From positions 48,000 to 111,999 of the forward strand of contig JAFDZI010000039.1 in assembly GCA_018266955.1 (NCBI GenBank): a DNA stretch of 64,000 nt, read 5' to 3'. Below, one piece after another: positions 31,011 through 61,539 of this stretch. The notes under the pieces were generated by a model, which worked only from the letters and a program-made list of their open reading frames with translations, had not been told where the DNA came from and did no database searches. Source of the DNA: Bacteroidota bacterium. Lineage in GTDB: Bacteria; Bacteroidota; Bacteroidia; Flavobacteriales; Weeksellaceae. The position numbers were made by a program, and so were the translations under genes. Every line of letters starts with the position of its first letter. The stretch's first letter is position 1.

Positions 31011-31493
31011 ATGATAAATCGAACTTATACATTACTGAATAATCTTAATGAGCAACTCCATTTTATAGATTTGGAGACTGATAATTTGGTTCATAAAAGC
31101 GAAAAAGCTCTTGAGATATGTATAGAATCCATAAATAAACTTAAAAAACTGATTTCTAAATATAATTTCAAATCACAACAGGAAGAAATTCTATTTTTCA
31201 AAGAAATAAAACCACAATTCAATTCCAAAAGAATTTACTACAATTCCCTGAGCTTGTCGAAGGGTGAAGCCACTTGCGACTTATCCGTTAAAAACCCAAA
31301 TAAACCAGAAGAACCTCACTCCACGCTACACCACAGACCTCCACCAAATCATCAAAGTCAAAGCAAAATAACACAATATCAGTTCCCCTCTTCTAGAGAA
31401 CTGGCATTCCAACTGTTCCAAAAAACGCAATATATAAAGTTCCCTTCTTTTAGAGGGGTAGCATTCCAACTGCTCCAAAAACGCAATACTTAA
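31011..31493 (+). pseudogene. RteC-like regulator, N-terminal remnant cut by palindromic repeats
   Basis: The first 80 or so residues match the start of RteC, the regulator of excision of CTnDOT-type elements: ETDNLVHKSEKALEICIES, then EILFFKEIKPQFNSKRIYYNSL. RteC normally runs to about 270-290 residues. Here the frame passes at about 31245 into repeat DNA (CCTGAGCTTGTCGAAGGG, a REP sequence widespread in bacteria). It continues through translated hairpin repeats (FPSSRELAFQLF, FPSFRGVAFQLL) and stops at 31493. The C-terminal HTH region is missing, so the excision control it implies is probably dead. Confidence 0.75.
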
Positions 31494-31582
31494 AGTTCCC
31501 CACTTTTAGAGGACTGGCATTCTAACTGTTCCAAAAAACGCAATATAAAAAGTTCCCCTCTTTTAGAGGGGTGGCATTCCGA
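31381..31582. repeat. Tandem array of about 57-bp units built on a REP-like hairpin
   Basis: Units begin AGTTCCCCTC at 31381, 31438, 31494 and 31551 (periods 57, 56, 57; the last is partial). Each contains a CCCCTC-TTTTA-GAGGGG-type hairpin (perfect at 31555-31571) and a CATTCCAACTG block. The array ends in a second dyad, CATTCCGAGAATCGGAATG, near 31575-31593. The core resembles the hairpins inside the restriction gene at 60.4-61.3 kb. Confidence 0.8.
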
Positions 31583-31599
31583 GAATCGGAATGACGGGG

Positions 31600-31931
31600 T
31601 GTCTACTTCAAAAACTCAATGATTTTCATCAATTTCCATCAAAATTCCGACTTCCCATATTTTTTATTCATTCATTTTGTATAAATTTGTTAAAAGCTAA
31701 TAAACGGAAAATATAAATTCAAACTCATTCAAATGCTTACAATTTTCTAAAACTAATTTTTAATTAATTATAGAGATTCTACAATTATTTCTCACTATAA
31801 AAACTACGTAGAACAAATGAACAGAAAAATAATCTTTACAGAAAAATCAAATAAAAATACAACATTTATCAAAACACATATATAGTTTTACTATATCTAC
31901 ATTTGAACTAACCTCAAAAATTAATGATTTA
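31600..31931. other. AT-rich gene-free stretch ending in a possible promoter
   Basis: There is no coding signal. TACATTTG at 31898-31905 fits the Bacteroidota -7 consensus TAnnTTTG and lies 27 bp before the cold-shock gene, but I see no matching -33 TTG. Confidence 0.35.
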
Positions 31932-55986: not shown

Positions 55987-56121
55987 TTTTTTTGATATTT
56001 TAATCCTACTTCTTTGCTTTTCAGGAAAATACCTGCAGTTCGTGTGGATAGATTTTGTTAAATTTGGTTTAATTTAGGTACAACGATATTAAATTGAATT
56101 AACCTCTAAAACACAAAGGAT

Positions 56122-58692: not shown

Positions 58693-58696
58693 AACA

Positions 58697-58712
58697 GGGT
58701 CGAATTCGACCC
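58697..58712. repeat. Perfect 16-bp palindrome at the split point
   Basis: GGGTCGAATTCGACCC lies 4 bp after the stop of the methyltransferase half and 24 bp before the DUF1016 start. It contains an EcoRI-type GAATTC core. It could be a hairpin attenuator or the mark of the DUF1016 insertion. Confidence 0.8.
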
Positions 58713-58736
58713 CTTTGAAATGAAAAAACTAAAACC

Positions 58737-59762
58737 ATGAACTACCTATTAGAAATAAAGCAAATTCTTGCCCAAGCTCGCCAAAAAGCGTACTCGGCTA
58801 TCAATTCAGCAATGGTGGAAGCCTACTGGAATATTGGCAAACGAATAGTTGAAGAAGAGCAAAACGGAGCAGACAGAGCAGAATACGGCAAACAAATTAT
58901 TCAAACCATTTCTGAAGAATTGTCACAGGAGTTTGGAAAAGGATTTGGGCCTAGAACGATTTGGAATATACGCCAGTTTTATTCTTATTTCCCAGAATAT
59001 GAGATTATGAAAACACTGTTTTCACAATTGTCATGGTCTCATTTTCAACGAGTTTTAAAAGTTTCTAATGAAAAAGCAAGAATGTATTACCTCAAAGAGG
59101 CAGCTGAGAATATGTGGTCTGTTAGAACTTTAGATCGCAATATTTCTACACTTTATTATGACCGTTTACTTGCTTCTTCGGATAAAGAAGTGGTACAAAA
59201 CGAAATGCTGGAAAAGACAGAAAAAACACAGCTAAATCCATTTGATTTTATAAAAAATCCAACGGTATTGGAATTTCTGAATTTGCCAACCAATAAATCT
59301 TACACCGAAGCCGAATTGGAAAAAGCGCTGATTGATAATTTACAAGCGTTTATTTTAGAATTAGGAAAAGGATTTGCGTTTGTAGCTCGACAAGAATATA
59401 TTCGCACAGAAACTTCCGACTTTTACATCGACTTGGTATTTTACAACTACATCTTAAAATGTTTTGTAATTGTGGAATTGAAGACCAATAAATTAACCCA
59501 CCAAGACATTGGACAATTGGATATGTATGTACGCATGTATGACGATTTGAAACGGCAAGCAGATGACAACCCTACGATTGGTTTGTTGCTGTGTACAGAA
59601 ACCGATGGTGTGGTTGCAAAATATTCGGTGTTGAATGAAAACAAACAACTTTTTGCAAGCAAATACATGAAATTCCTTCCTACCGAGGAAGAACTCATCC
59701 GAGAAATAGAACAACAAAAAATGTTTTTTGAAAACCAACATAAAAGCAACCAACATGGCTAA
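58737..59762 (+). CDS. DUF1016 (YhcG-like) PD-(D/E)XK protein inserted in the restriction enzyme gene
   Basis: The 341-residue protein has the DUF1016 N-terminal domain (about 5-130, with GKGFGPRTIWNIRQFY and LSWSHFQRVLKV). The C-terminal nuclease-like domain contains FYIDLVFYN (Asp) and FVIVELKTNK (E-x-K). It is the second DUF1016 gene of the window, related to 15131-16189 but without the palindromic insertion. It sits between the two halves of one restriction enzyme. Its stop overlaps the start of the second half by 8 bp (ATGGCTAA), so the halves remain one translationally coupled operon. Confidence 0.88.
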   Translation: MNYLLEIKQILAQARQKAYSAINSAMVEAYWNIGKRIVEEEQNGADRAEYGKQIIQTISEELSQEFGKGFGPRTIWNIRQFYSYFPEYEIMKTLFSQLSWSHFQRVLKVSNEKARMYYLKEAAENMWSVRTLDRNISTLYYDRLLASSDKEVVQNEMLEKTEKTQLNPFDFIKNPTVLEFLNLPTNKSYTEAELEKALIDNLQAFILELGKGFAFVARQEYIRTETSDFYIDLVFYNYILKCFVIVELKTNKLTHQDIGQLDMYVRMYDDLKRQADDNPTIGLLLCTETDGVVAKYSVLNENKQLFASKYMKFLPTEEELIREIEQQKMFFENQHKSNQHG

Positions 59763-61539
59763 AAAACCAGCACAAATATTCCACTTTGACCTTTACGGAA
59801 AACGAGAAGATAAATACAATTTCTTAGATGAAAACTCGATAACCTCCATTGATTGGATAGAGCTAAAACCCGAAGCTCCAAATTTTTTCTTTGTCAATAA
59901 AAATTTTGACGGACAAGAGGAATATGAGAAAGGGTTTAAAGTGGATGAGTTGTTTCCAATTAATACAAGTGGTATAAAAACACATGATGACAATAATTTA
60001 GTCTCTTTTAGTCCTTTTTCAGAGAAAAATCAAAAGTATGACTATCGTCCATTTGATAAGAGAAATATATTTTTTGATTTATCGAAGGTGGTTAGGCCAA
60101 GAATATCAGTAATGAAACATTTCCTAGAAAAAGAAAATTTAGGTTTAATTACTTGCAGACAACAAAGCGCTTTTGATTTTCAGCATGTTTTTATTACAAA
60201 AATTATTTCCGATATGTGTTCTGTCTCATCGCAAACGAAAGAAACAGGATATATCTTCCCCCTCTACCTCTATCCCGACAATTCGTCCACCTTATTAGAA
60301 GAAGAAAAAACAGAACGCGTTCCTAATTTTAATATGGAAATTGTAAAGCAAATTGAAGAAAATTTGGATTTACAATTTGTTCCGGAAAAATTCCCCTCCT
60401 CCGGAGGGGTGTCCGCTTGTGGCGGACGGGGTGGTTCCTTCCCCTCCTTTGGAGGGGTGGCTGAAAGCCGGGGTGGTTCTTTCCACTCCATTGGAGATAT
60501 GTCACAGAGCCGAAGTGGTAGAAACACCAGAAACTATATGTCCTTGCCCTACAACCCTGAGCTCAAAGATAGAGCAAAGGCGCTTCGAAAAGCTGGCAAT
60601 TTGGCTGAGGTCTTATTTTGGAATCAAGTAAAGAATAAACAATTCAAAGGGCTGGATTTTGACAGGCAAAAAATAATAGGAAACTATATTGTGGATTTTT
60701 ATTGTGCTAATTGCAATGTTGTGGTAGAAATAGATGGAAGCAGTCACGATAATAAACAAGAATATGATGCAGCAAGAGATGCCTTTTTGGAATCGTTAGG
60801 ACTAACCATCATACACATTCCAGTAACCGATGTGATGAAAAGAATGGGGGCGGTGATGGATATGCTGGAGCAGCATCCGGTATTTTTACCACTCTGCACC
60901 ACGGGGCAAGAGAATTTACCACCTGGAGTTTTACCACCCCGCCCGCTTGTGGCGGGCACCCCTCCAGAGGAGGGGAATTTACCAGCAGACACTGTTGGTT
61001 CTACTGCAAATGAGGGGAATTTTACACCGATAGATGTTTTAGACTACATCTATGCCGTCTTACATTCGCCAACTTATAGAGAAAAATACAAAGAGTTTCT
61101 AAAAATAGACTTTCCGAGAGTGCCCTATCCAAAATTGGGAACATTTATGAAATTAGTGGAATTGGGTCGTCAGCTTCGTGAAATTCATTTGTTGGAAAGT
61201 CCGGTAGTAGAAAACTACATCACCCAATATCCCGAAGATGGAAATAATGTTGTAACGAAGCCTCGCTTCATAAGTTCCCCTCCTCCGGAGGGGTGTCCGC
61301 CACAAGCGGACGGGGTGGTCGGAAATGTGTATATCAACGAAACCCAATATTTTGCAAATGTTCCCGAGGTAGCTTGGAATTTCTACATCGGTGGTTATCA
61401 ACCTGCCCAAAAATGGCTCAAAGACCGCAAAGACCGAACTTTGGAATTTGAGGACATTTTACATTATCAAAAAATTATTGTGGCTATTTCAGAAACCAAT
61501 CGGTTGATGAAGGCGATTGATGAAATTCAGTTAATTTAA
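59755..61539 (+). CDS. Type ISP/IIG enzyme, target-recognition part carrying an in-frame DUF559 endonuclease module and REP-like repeats
   Basis: From ATG 59755 the protein has 594 residues. Residues 1-180 (QIFHFDLYGKREDKYNFLDE at the start) continue the enzyme split upstream, and about 425-594 (DVLDYIYAVLHSPTYREKYK, FYIGGYQPAQKWLKDRK) are its C-terminal specificity region. Between them lie a Gly/Ser-rich stretch coded by hairpin repeats (about 213-255) and a complete DUF559 domain from an internal ATG at 60538 (about 262-380). Its nuclease residues are Asp in YIVDFYC and E-x-D in VVEIDGSSHD. Another hairpin-coded patch (SSPPPEGCPPQADGVV) interrupts the C-terminal part. Whether the chimera still recognises DNA is unknown. 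Confidence 0.82.
   Translation: MAKKPAQIFHFDLYGKREDKYNFLDENSITSIDWIELKPEAPNFFFVNKNFDGQEEYEKGFKVDELFPINTSGIKTHDDNNLVSFSPFSEKNQKYDYRPFDKRNIFFDLSKVVRPRISVMKHFLEKENLGLITCRQQSAFDFQHVFITKIISDMCSVSSQTKETGYIFPLYLYPDNSSTLLEEEKTERVPNFNMEIVKQIEENLDLQFVPEKFPSSGGVSACGGRGGSFPSFGGVAESRGGSFHSIGDMSQSRSGRNTRNYMSLPYNPELKDRAKALRKAGNLAEVLFWNQVKNKQFKGLDFDRQKIIGNYIVDFYCANCNVVVEIDGSSHDNKQEYDAARDAFLESLGLTIIHIPVTDVMKRMGAVMDMLEQHPVFLPLCTTGQENLPPGVLPPRPLVAGTPPEEGNLPADTVGSTANEGNFTPIDVLDYIYAVLHSPTYREKYKEFLKIDFPRVPYPKLGTFMKLVELGRQLREIHLLESPVVENYITQYPEDGNNVVTKPRFISSPPPEGCPPQADGVVGNVYINETQYFANVPEVAWNFYIGGYQPAQKWLKDRKDRTLEFEDILHYQKIIVAISETNRLMKAIDEIQLI
60391..60520 (+). repeat. Three tandem REP-like double hairpins (left flank of the DUF559 module)
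   Basis: Unit 1 has stems CCCCTCC/GGAGGGG (60393-60409) and GTCCGC/GCGGAC (60411-60427) and ends GGGGTGG. Unit 2 has CCCCTCC/GGAGGGG (60441-60457) and GGCT/AGCC (60459-60469). Unit 3 (60483 on) is degenerate. All are translated in frame. Confidence 0.88.
60933..60977 (-). repeat. Inverted REP-like double hairpin (right flank of the DUF559 module)
   Basis: Stems GCCCGC/GCGGGC (60941-60957) and CCCCTCC/GGAGGGG (60959-60975) are in the order opposite to the left units, so this copy is on the other strand. The frame stays open. Confidence 0.88.
61275..61319 (+). repeat. Fourth REP-like double hairpin inside the C-terminal region
   Basis: CCCCTCC/GGAGGGG (61277-61293) and GTCCGC/GCGGAC (61295-61311) are in the left-unit orientation. 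The copy matches unit 1 except that the inner loop is CACAA instead of TTGTG, i.e. the inner hairpin is inverted. It encodes SSPPPEGCPPQADGVV. Confidence 0.88.

Follow-up and report, generated by a model that had tools for sequence, protein, structure and literature searches.

The window, the whole stretch of 64,000 nucleotides analysed here, contains an open reading frame (ORF) for the C-terminal half of a Type ISP restriction-modification enzyme that is interrupted, in frame, by a DUF559 gene lying between oppositely oriented REP-like double hairpins (Table 1). Both parts are recognised by Pfam in the same ORF, Type_ISP_C with an E-value of 5e-70 and DUF559 with 5.7e-29 (residues 279-380), and the DUF559 frame keeps the conserved E, D, ExD and H positions. 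The first-pass annotation of this DNA had described an intact DUF559 frame within the second half of the Type ISP gene, preceded by three double hairpins and followed by an inverted copy without a break in the frame, and all of this holds, two of the upstream hairpins being intact and the third decayed. It had also expected alignment with uninterrupted homologues to reveal the exact empty site; the alignment does so, and the segment missing from the uninterrupted proteins is the insertion listed in Table 1. A fourth intact copy had been overlooked: a solo hairpin about 290 nt past the inverted copy, in the loop, called site B, that holds a DUF559 cassette in other homologues, so that within one ORF of the window a cassette occupies site A and a solo hairpin occupies site B.

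Table 1. Features of the interrupted Type ISP gene, in positions of the window
Feature	Position	Strand	Details
Host ORF, Type ISP restriction-modification C-terminal half	59728..61539	+	603 aa, stop-free
Insertion at site A	60391..61020	+	210 codons, ORF residues 222-431
REP-like double hairpin 1, intact	60388..60435	+	stems 60393-60409, 60411-60427
REP-like double hairpin 2, intact	60436..60476	+	stems 60441-60457, 60459-60469
Third double hairpin, decayed	60477..60510	+	repeat match 60469-60510, 76% identical
Block shared with the HsdR-gene cassette of G029 (matched to Vaginella massiliensis)	60439..60984	+	71%
DUF559 frame with its own ATG at 60538	60538..60867	+	Pfam domain 60562-60867
Inverted double hairpin, intact	60933..60980	-	48-nt inverted repeat; stems 60941-60957, 60959-60975
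Further inverted copy, decayed	61004..61022	-	84% identity
Solo double hairpin, site B	61271..61319	+	same ORF, intact

The first stems of the hairpins are 7 bp long with a 3-nt loop, the second stems 6 bp with a 5-nt loop in three copies and 4 bp with a 3-nt loop in one, and folded as single-stranded DNA they give z-scores of -3.95, -2.00, -3.91 and -3.21. With up to three mismatches, CCCCTCCNNNGGAGGGG occurs seven times in the window, where shuffled sequences lead one to expect 0.28; the exact sequence occurs four times, always within the Type ISP ORF, and the 2.45-Mb genome as a whole holds four exact hairpin copies, all in the Type ISP gene, and a single DUF559 match. A chance origin of the pattern is ruled out by the shuffles and by control windows (0/477). 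No known structured RNA was matched in Rfam between positions 56000 and 64000. The hairpins are encoded as peptides in both orientations, as SPPLEGC-GGVV before the cassette and as PPRP-GTPPKEGN after it.

Two further features of the window are recorded here in their own right. At 31383-31603, about four hairpins that follow the same grammar (TTCCCCTCTTTTAGAGGGGTGGCATTCC..GGAATGACGGGGTGT) form an array with no adjoining DUF559 match, which resembles the repeats of two DUF559 loci from other genomes (L029 and L031). A DUF1016/YhcG nuclease gene (58737-59762) splits the methylase part of Type ISP from its specificity part (region 58693-59762); the palindrome GGGTCGAATTCGACCC stands at the junction, and many homologues begin at the same point.

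Among solved structures, a profile of the window's DUF559 domain finds 3hrl (119 bits) and the homing endonuclease I-Bth0305I (3r3p, E 2.6e-6). An AlphaFold model (pLDDT 85.7) searched with Foldseek retrieves 3hrl as the best match (E 3.1e-7), a Toxoplasma mitoribosome chain second and 3r3p third (E 2.4e-3, probability 1.00, TM 0.65), and the invariant positions of the family include E18, D47, E58, G61 and H64. By profile and modelled fold together, the domain is homologous to that of this EDxHD enzyme. I-Bth0305I is a mobile-intron homing endonuclease, and it shares with DUF559 the placement of a nuclease gene within another gene; in the DUF559 unit no intron was seen, the borders being hairpins (PMC3943268; PDB 3r3p). 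No Pfam match to an extra DNA-binding region of the NUMOD type was found in the window ORF. The Caulobacter protein VsrA is a DUF559 protein too, with DNA damage evidence in vivo: according to its report, the SOS response of cells lacking the cytosine methylase depends on VsrA, for which a role in mismatch repair is proposed (PMC12907096). VsrA is treated there as a mismatch-repair-like enzyme, while the window's DUF559 is hairpin-bounded.

Hairpins and DUF559 genes in other genomes

Loci from four sets of genomes were compared. The relatives of the window genome comprised 59 genomes with 23 strong DUF559 hits, 22 of which gave a usable locus, and eight weak hits (below 30 bits) that were counted apart. 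A scan of the phylum found DUF559 in 170 of 296 genomes, and a selection from among its best-scoring hits (28 of 30 that came with a locus and 40 of those listed without one) gave 67 loci, with L050 and L054 (contig edges) and L078 (short flank) left aside. Scanning named genomes for the clade of the window nuclease yielded at least 80 loci in Bacteroidota, cyanobacteria, Proteobacteria, Calditrichota, a spirochaete and others, the phyla being those of the record titles, many of them metagenome bins; flanks were long enough for the flank-match test in 77 and for the hairpin rule in 67, and three near-identical pairs (L128/L129, L136/L138, L153/L154) were kept. Finally, 10 of 46 plasmid records were examined.

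Inverted matches of at least 15 between the two flanks were found at 62 of the 89 DUF559 loci of the relatives and the phylum, at 4 of 378 control windows, in 35 of 528 mismatched flank pairs and at none of the eight weak hits, and direct matches of at least 20 at 42 of 89 loci against 1 of 378 control windows. At the named loci, with a threshold of 18, inverted matches numbered 48/77 against 0/291 control positions and direct matches 28/77 against 8/291. A strict hairpin rule, demanding a perfect stem of at least 6 with an all-pyrimidine (C/T) arm, identified hairpins on both sides in 20 of 22 relatives, 45 of 67 phylum loci, 42 of 67 loci of the named window-like clade and 4 of 10 plasmid loci. 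Among same-genome control windows it was satisfied on both sides in 0 of 477 and on one side in 6, at outer positions on both sides in 2 of 352 and on at least one side in 20, and at none of 20 loci of Y1_Tnp genes or eight weak, non-DUF559 hits. Loci with no hairpin under this rule amounted to 7 of 67 in the phylum, 2 of 67 in the named and 4 of 10 in the plasmid set. When the rule was framed, flank matches were already known for the relatives, for 28 phylum loci (the first ones compared) and for the named and plasmid loci, and a repeat had been viewed for 16 of the 40 later phylum loci before it was set; a recount of these later loci gave 24/39 with both sides, and the 23 loci whose flanks were unviewed before the rule gave 13 with both sides and 21 with at least one. 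The association predicted by the first-pass annotation thus recurs in the relatives and in the further phylum loci. Its picture of a REP/RAYT-like DUF559 cassette stands as far as a hairpin-to-hairpin unit lying in frame in many genes is concerned, but the confinement to Bacteroidota that it assumed does not, the unit also being found in cyanobacterial, proteobacterial, Deinococcus, spirochaete and other records.

Several lines of evidence support the view that DUF559 genes and hairpins behave as one unit, reaching from hairpin to hairpin. Hairpin similarity rises with DUF559 identity (Spearman 0.257 across 88 loci; the maximum of 300 permutations was 0.059); upstream hairpins were compared with reverse-complemented downstream ones, a pairing to which collinear homology of the hosts cannot contribute. 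Most of the named loci of the window clade have a AATTCCCCTCC-GGAGGGGTG-CGGGGTGGT unit beside them, and members of this clade, 63-85% identical to the query protein, have the same hairpins across different genes and phyla. Homology between cassettes ends at the hairpins: the window and the HsdR gene of V. massiliensis, which belongs to the same family and another genus, share 548 aligned bases at 71% identity with hairpins as borders at both ends (L001/L012), and two copies on different contigs of one genome (L071/L087) have a 490-bp block in common with the same kind of borders. The DUF559 genes yield dN/dS values of 0.00-0.23 in 8 of 11 pairs, dS being saturated in the other three. In viral contigs there were 19 pattern matches, none of them a relative of the window clade.

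DUF559 cassettes recur in unrelated host genes

According to Pfam, DUF559 lies in frame in leucyl-tRNA synthetase, MetH, HsdR, HsdM, HsdS, Type ISP and other methylases, UvrD-like helicases and methylmalonyl-CoA mutase, and DUF559 frames are also joined to GATase_5, HisA-like and N-formylglutamate amidohydrolase domains. Stop-to-stop frames exceed 300 aa at 35 of 90 loci, and at 48 of 77 named loci when the three near-identical pairs are included. An intein can be dismissed for the host ORFs scanned, in which no splicing domain was found.

Among Type ISP proteins, DUF559 is present in 82 and absent from 38 of the 120 homologues listed out of 7945, and the alignment of 37 of these 38 places the domain in two variable loops, site A at residues 847-868 and site B at residues 956-967 of the reference. 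Of the 82 listed DUF559-bearing proteins, 64 match a strict regular expression for the hairpin peptides on one side or more, 41 of them on both, and the two patterns match 6 and 3 of 293 control windows; the counts are rough, as the HMM call for DUF559 fell beyond the limits of the insert in several proteins. A resident domain, at the same place in most homologues and free of repeats, had been named in advance as what would speak against mobility; DUF559 does recur in most of the listed proteins, but it does so in two loops and mostly with hairpin peptides on at least one side. In some homologues (P0049, P0005) this loop holds hairpins of another type, a sign that insertions into it took place independently.

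The fused methylmalonyl-CoA mutase was followed within a single genus of 61 genomes, where the site could be compared in 30 loci, one per genome: 15 are filled, 12 empty, two hold hairpins only and one a hairpin with a remnant of the cassette (L232). The cassette ends here are typically GCCTCACCCCGGCCCTCTCC... and its reverse complement. On the host tree the state of the site changes nine times, at least seven of these changes being forced by starred branches; shuffled states averaged 10.3 changes, and 139 of 500 were as low as nine. In none of 105 pairs do the cassettes resemble each other more than their hosts do, cassette and host distances correlate with r 0.24 (69 of 1000 permutations as high) and the cassette tree is poorly resolved. 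Given the lack of closer pairs and the weak correlation, a single old insertion followed by repeated loss is tenable for this site and may be what these sequences record. The repeat CCTCACCCCNNCCCTCTCC occurs in 38 of the 61 genomes, with no control hits; filled genomes contain a mean of 5.7 copies against 2.4 in the others (P 6.6e-4), or P 0.05 when two copies are subtracted, and across the genus the number of DUF559 genes and the number of REPs are not significantly related (rho 0.15). As regards the traits of an insertion sequence, inverted ends are present, and no consistent short target duplication could be read at the mutase site.

Long direct repeats of up to about 400 bp surround the DUF559 gene at some loci. 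In L046 (870-2418), 285 bp of the 5' coding region of a hydrolase gene, which we take to be menH-like, are repeated at 97% identity on both sides of the cassette; the upstream copy is truncated, and the downstream copy runs into a frame of 278 aa. The arrangement suggests duplication of the target upon insertion.

Resemblance to REP/RAYT systems and rival explanations

In REP/RAYT systems, short palindromes flank a small gene in opposite orientation, and solo, paired and intragenic copies occur elsewhere in the genome, both of which are also seen with DUF559 and its hairpins (PMC3733652). The differences lie in the enzyme and in the repeat: RAYT is an HUH Y1 transposase, whereas the DUF559 unit encodes a predicted nuclease of the PD-(D/E)XK/Vsr-like kind, and the DUF559 hairpins, unlike REP/RAYT palindromes, have C/T arms. 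No HUH Y1 transposase was found by Pfam within the unit in the ORFs scanned, which contained DUF559 and host domains only; the two Y1_Tnp matches of the window genome are on other contigs, and the GTAG tag of REP/RAYT is absent beside the stems of the four intact window repeats. These comparisons support a resemblance of the unit to REP/RAYT in which a nuclease stands where those systems have the HUH transposase, and by analogy DUF559 would be a nuclease-based counterpart of that system. Another precedent is gene 60/mobE of phage T4, where a nuclease and a ribosomal bypass hairpin have been proposed to form one mobile in-gene cassette; the DUF559 unit, by comparison, has hairpins at either end and keeps an open frame along its whole length. 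REPs are common across bacteria, and some families lack a known enzyme, such as the CGTC-tagged REPs, which are described as having an unpaired CGTC, a stem of 8-9 bp, a loop of 4-5 nt and a CCA tail and for which no dedicated transposase is reported (PMC3733652). ACCACCCCGTC-like ends occur in some hairpin copies associated with DUF559. According to the same account, CGTC REPs and Rickettsia palindromic elements sit within the reading frames of functionally diverse proteins, and it is in this respect, not in sequence, that they are likened to the DUF559 hairpins (PMC3733652). No link between DUF559 and REPs was found among the matches listed in the open-licence PMC literature.

The reading we favour, with a probability of roughly 0.6, is that the hairpin-bounded predicted-nuclease gene in the window is a mobile cassette moved by nuclease-driven copying. 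The DUF559 nuclease would bind its own terminal hairpins and cut or nick DNA at or near such hairpins, and host break repair would then copy the cassette into the cut site in the fashion of a homing endonuclease. An inserted cassette would be tolerated where the frame stays open in a loop or linker, solo hairpins would represent non-autonomous copies or remnants, and the long direct repeats could be duplicated target arising from widely staggered nicks or from the integration of a circle. That the nuclease itself drives the movement is what we infer, and it is on this point that the first of the rival explanations bears. Another enzyme, for example a RAYT, or recombination hot spots might mobilise the hairpins and DUF559 might repeatedly be caught between them; hairpin families do persist in several genomes without DUF559, as in G352 (13 hits) and in G003, a 2-Mb genome with neither a DUF559 nor a Y1_Tnp match and with 26 CCCCT-AGGGG palindromes against one in the control, and Y1_Tnp genes are found in 30 of the 59 relatives. 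The loci of these genes, however, carry repeats of their own, of the GGCTTTAGCC and CCGTAGGAGCG types, strict-rule hairpins are lacking from all 20 of them, and a looser motif is present on one flank in 2 of 19, not above the controls (34/477). Across the 59 genomes the excess of hairpins follows DUF559 (P 2.2e-5) and not Y1_Tnp (P 0.064, and 0.79 among genomes without a strong DUF559 hit), hairpin type co-varies with DUF559 sequence, and V. massiliensis has a hairpin-flanked DUF559 gene and no Y1_Tnp match. RAYT as the mover finds no support in these counts, and we regard a passenger role for DUF559 as rather unlikely.

Nuclease-driven copying also has to be weighed against an explanation in which DUF559 serves its host as a beneficial nuclease of repair, restriction or defence, the hairpins being terminators or regulatory sites. 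The mismatch-repair role proposed for VsrA (PMC12907096), the many insertions in restriction-modification genes and the purifying selection on DUF559 all fit such a service. Leucyl-tRNA synthetase, MetH, methylmalonyl-CoA mutase, helicases and a HisA-like frame have no function in common, though, terminators are unexpected in frame within ORFs and the homology between cassettes ends at the hairpins, which together make this explanation improbable. We give equally little credence to the idea that the cassettes were once mobile and that most copies, the window's among them, are now inherited vertically and only being lost. It accounts for the mutase site with its cassettes no nearer to each other than their hosts, for remnants such as the one described there and for the decayed hairpins that flank the window copy; against it stand the spread of one clade with its hairpins over genes and phyla, the pair of copies from separate places of a single genome that have only the unit in common, and the low dN/dS wherever it could be measured. 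The link seen across phyla offers a likely partner both to DUF559, a family whose role is unsettled, and to a recognisable type of palindrome. It predicts a binding target for DUF559, opens the movement to direct test and explains puzzling segments that interrupt tRNA synthetases, MetH and restriction enzymes without breaking their frames.

Having inverted flanks does not by itself set DUF559 apart, as they also occur at other gene families. Inverted matches of at least 16, of another repeat type, flank 17 of 29 S23, 15 of 28 GxxExxY, 11 of 29 GIY-YIG and 10 of 19 Y1_Tnp genes, against 1 of 378 control windows with slightly longer flanks. C/T-armed hairpins, counted at the comparison genes before their flanks were read, occur at 0 of 29 S23, 0 of 28 GxxExxY and 0 of 29 GIY-YIG genes of the same genomes. 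The motif types hardly overlap between families, a descriptive statement since the motifs were taken from the same loci. It is tempting, if somewhat more doubtful than probable, to regard DUF559, short GIY-YIG, GxxExxY (PDDEXK_3) and S23/IVP, which are unrelated families that would each own a private inverted-flank repeat grammar, as a class of nuclease-driven REP systems that dispense with HUH enzymes; were this true, such systems would be the source of many 'orphan' palindromic repeats and would add new in-frame stretches to essential proteins. The short GIY-YIG (L325-L354), GxxExxY (L295-L324) and S23/IVP (L265-L294) genes often have inverted repeats at their flanks, of a type particular to each family. 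At one locus (L057, 175-3315) an HsdR gene contains both GIY-YIG and DUF559, between the HSDR_N and the SWI2/SNF2 domain.
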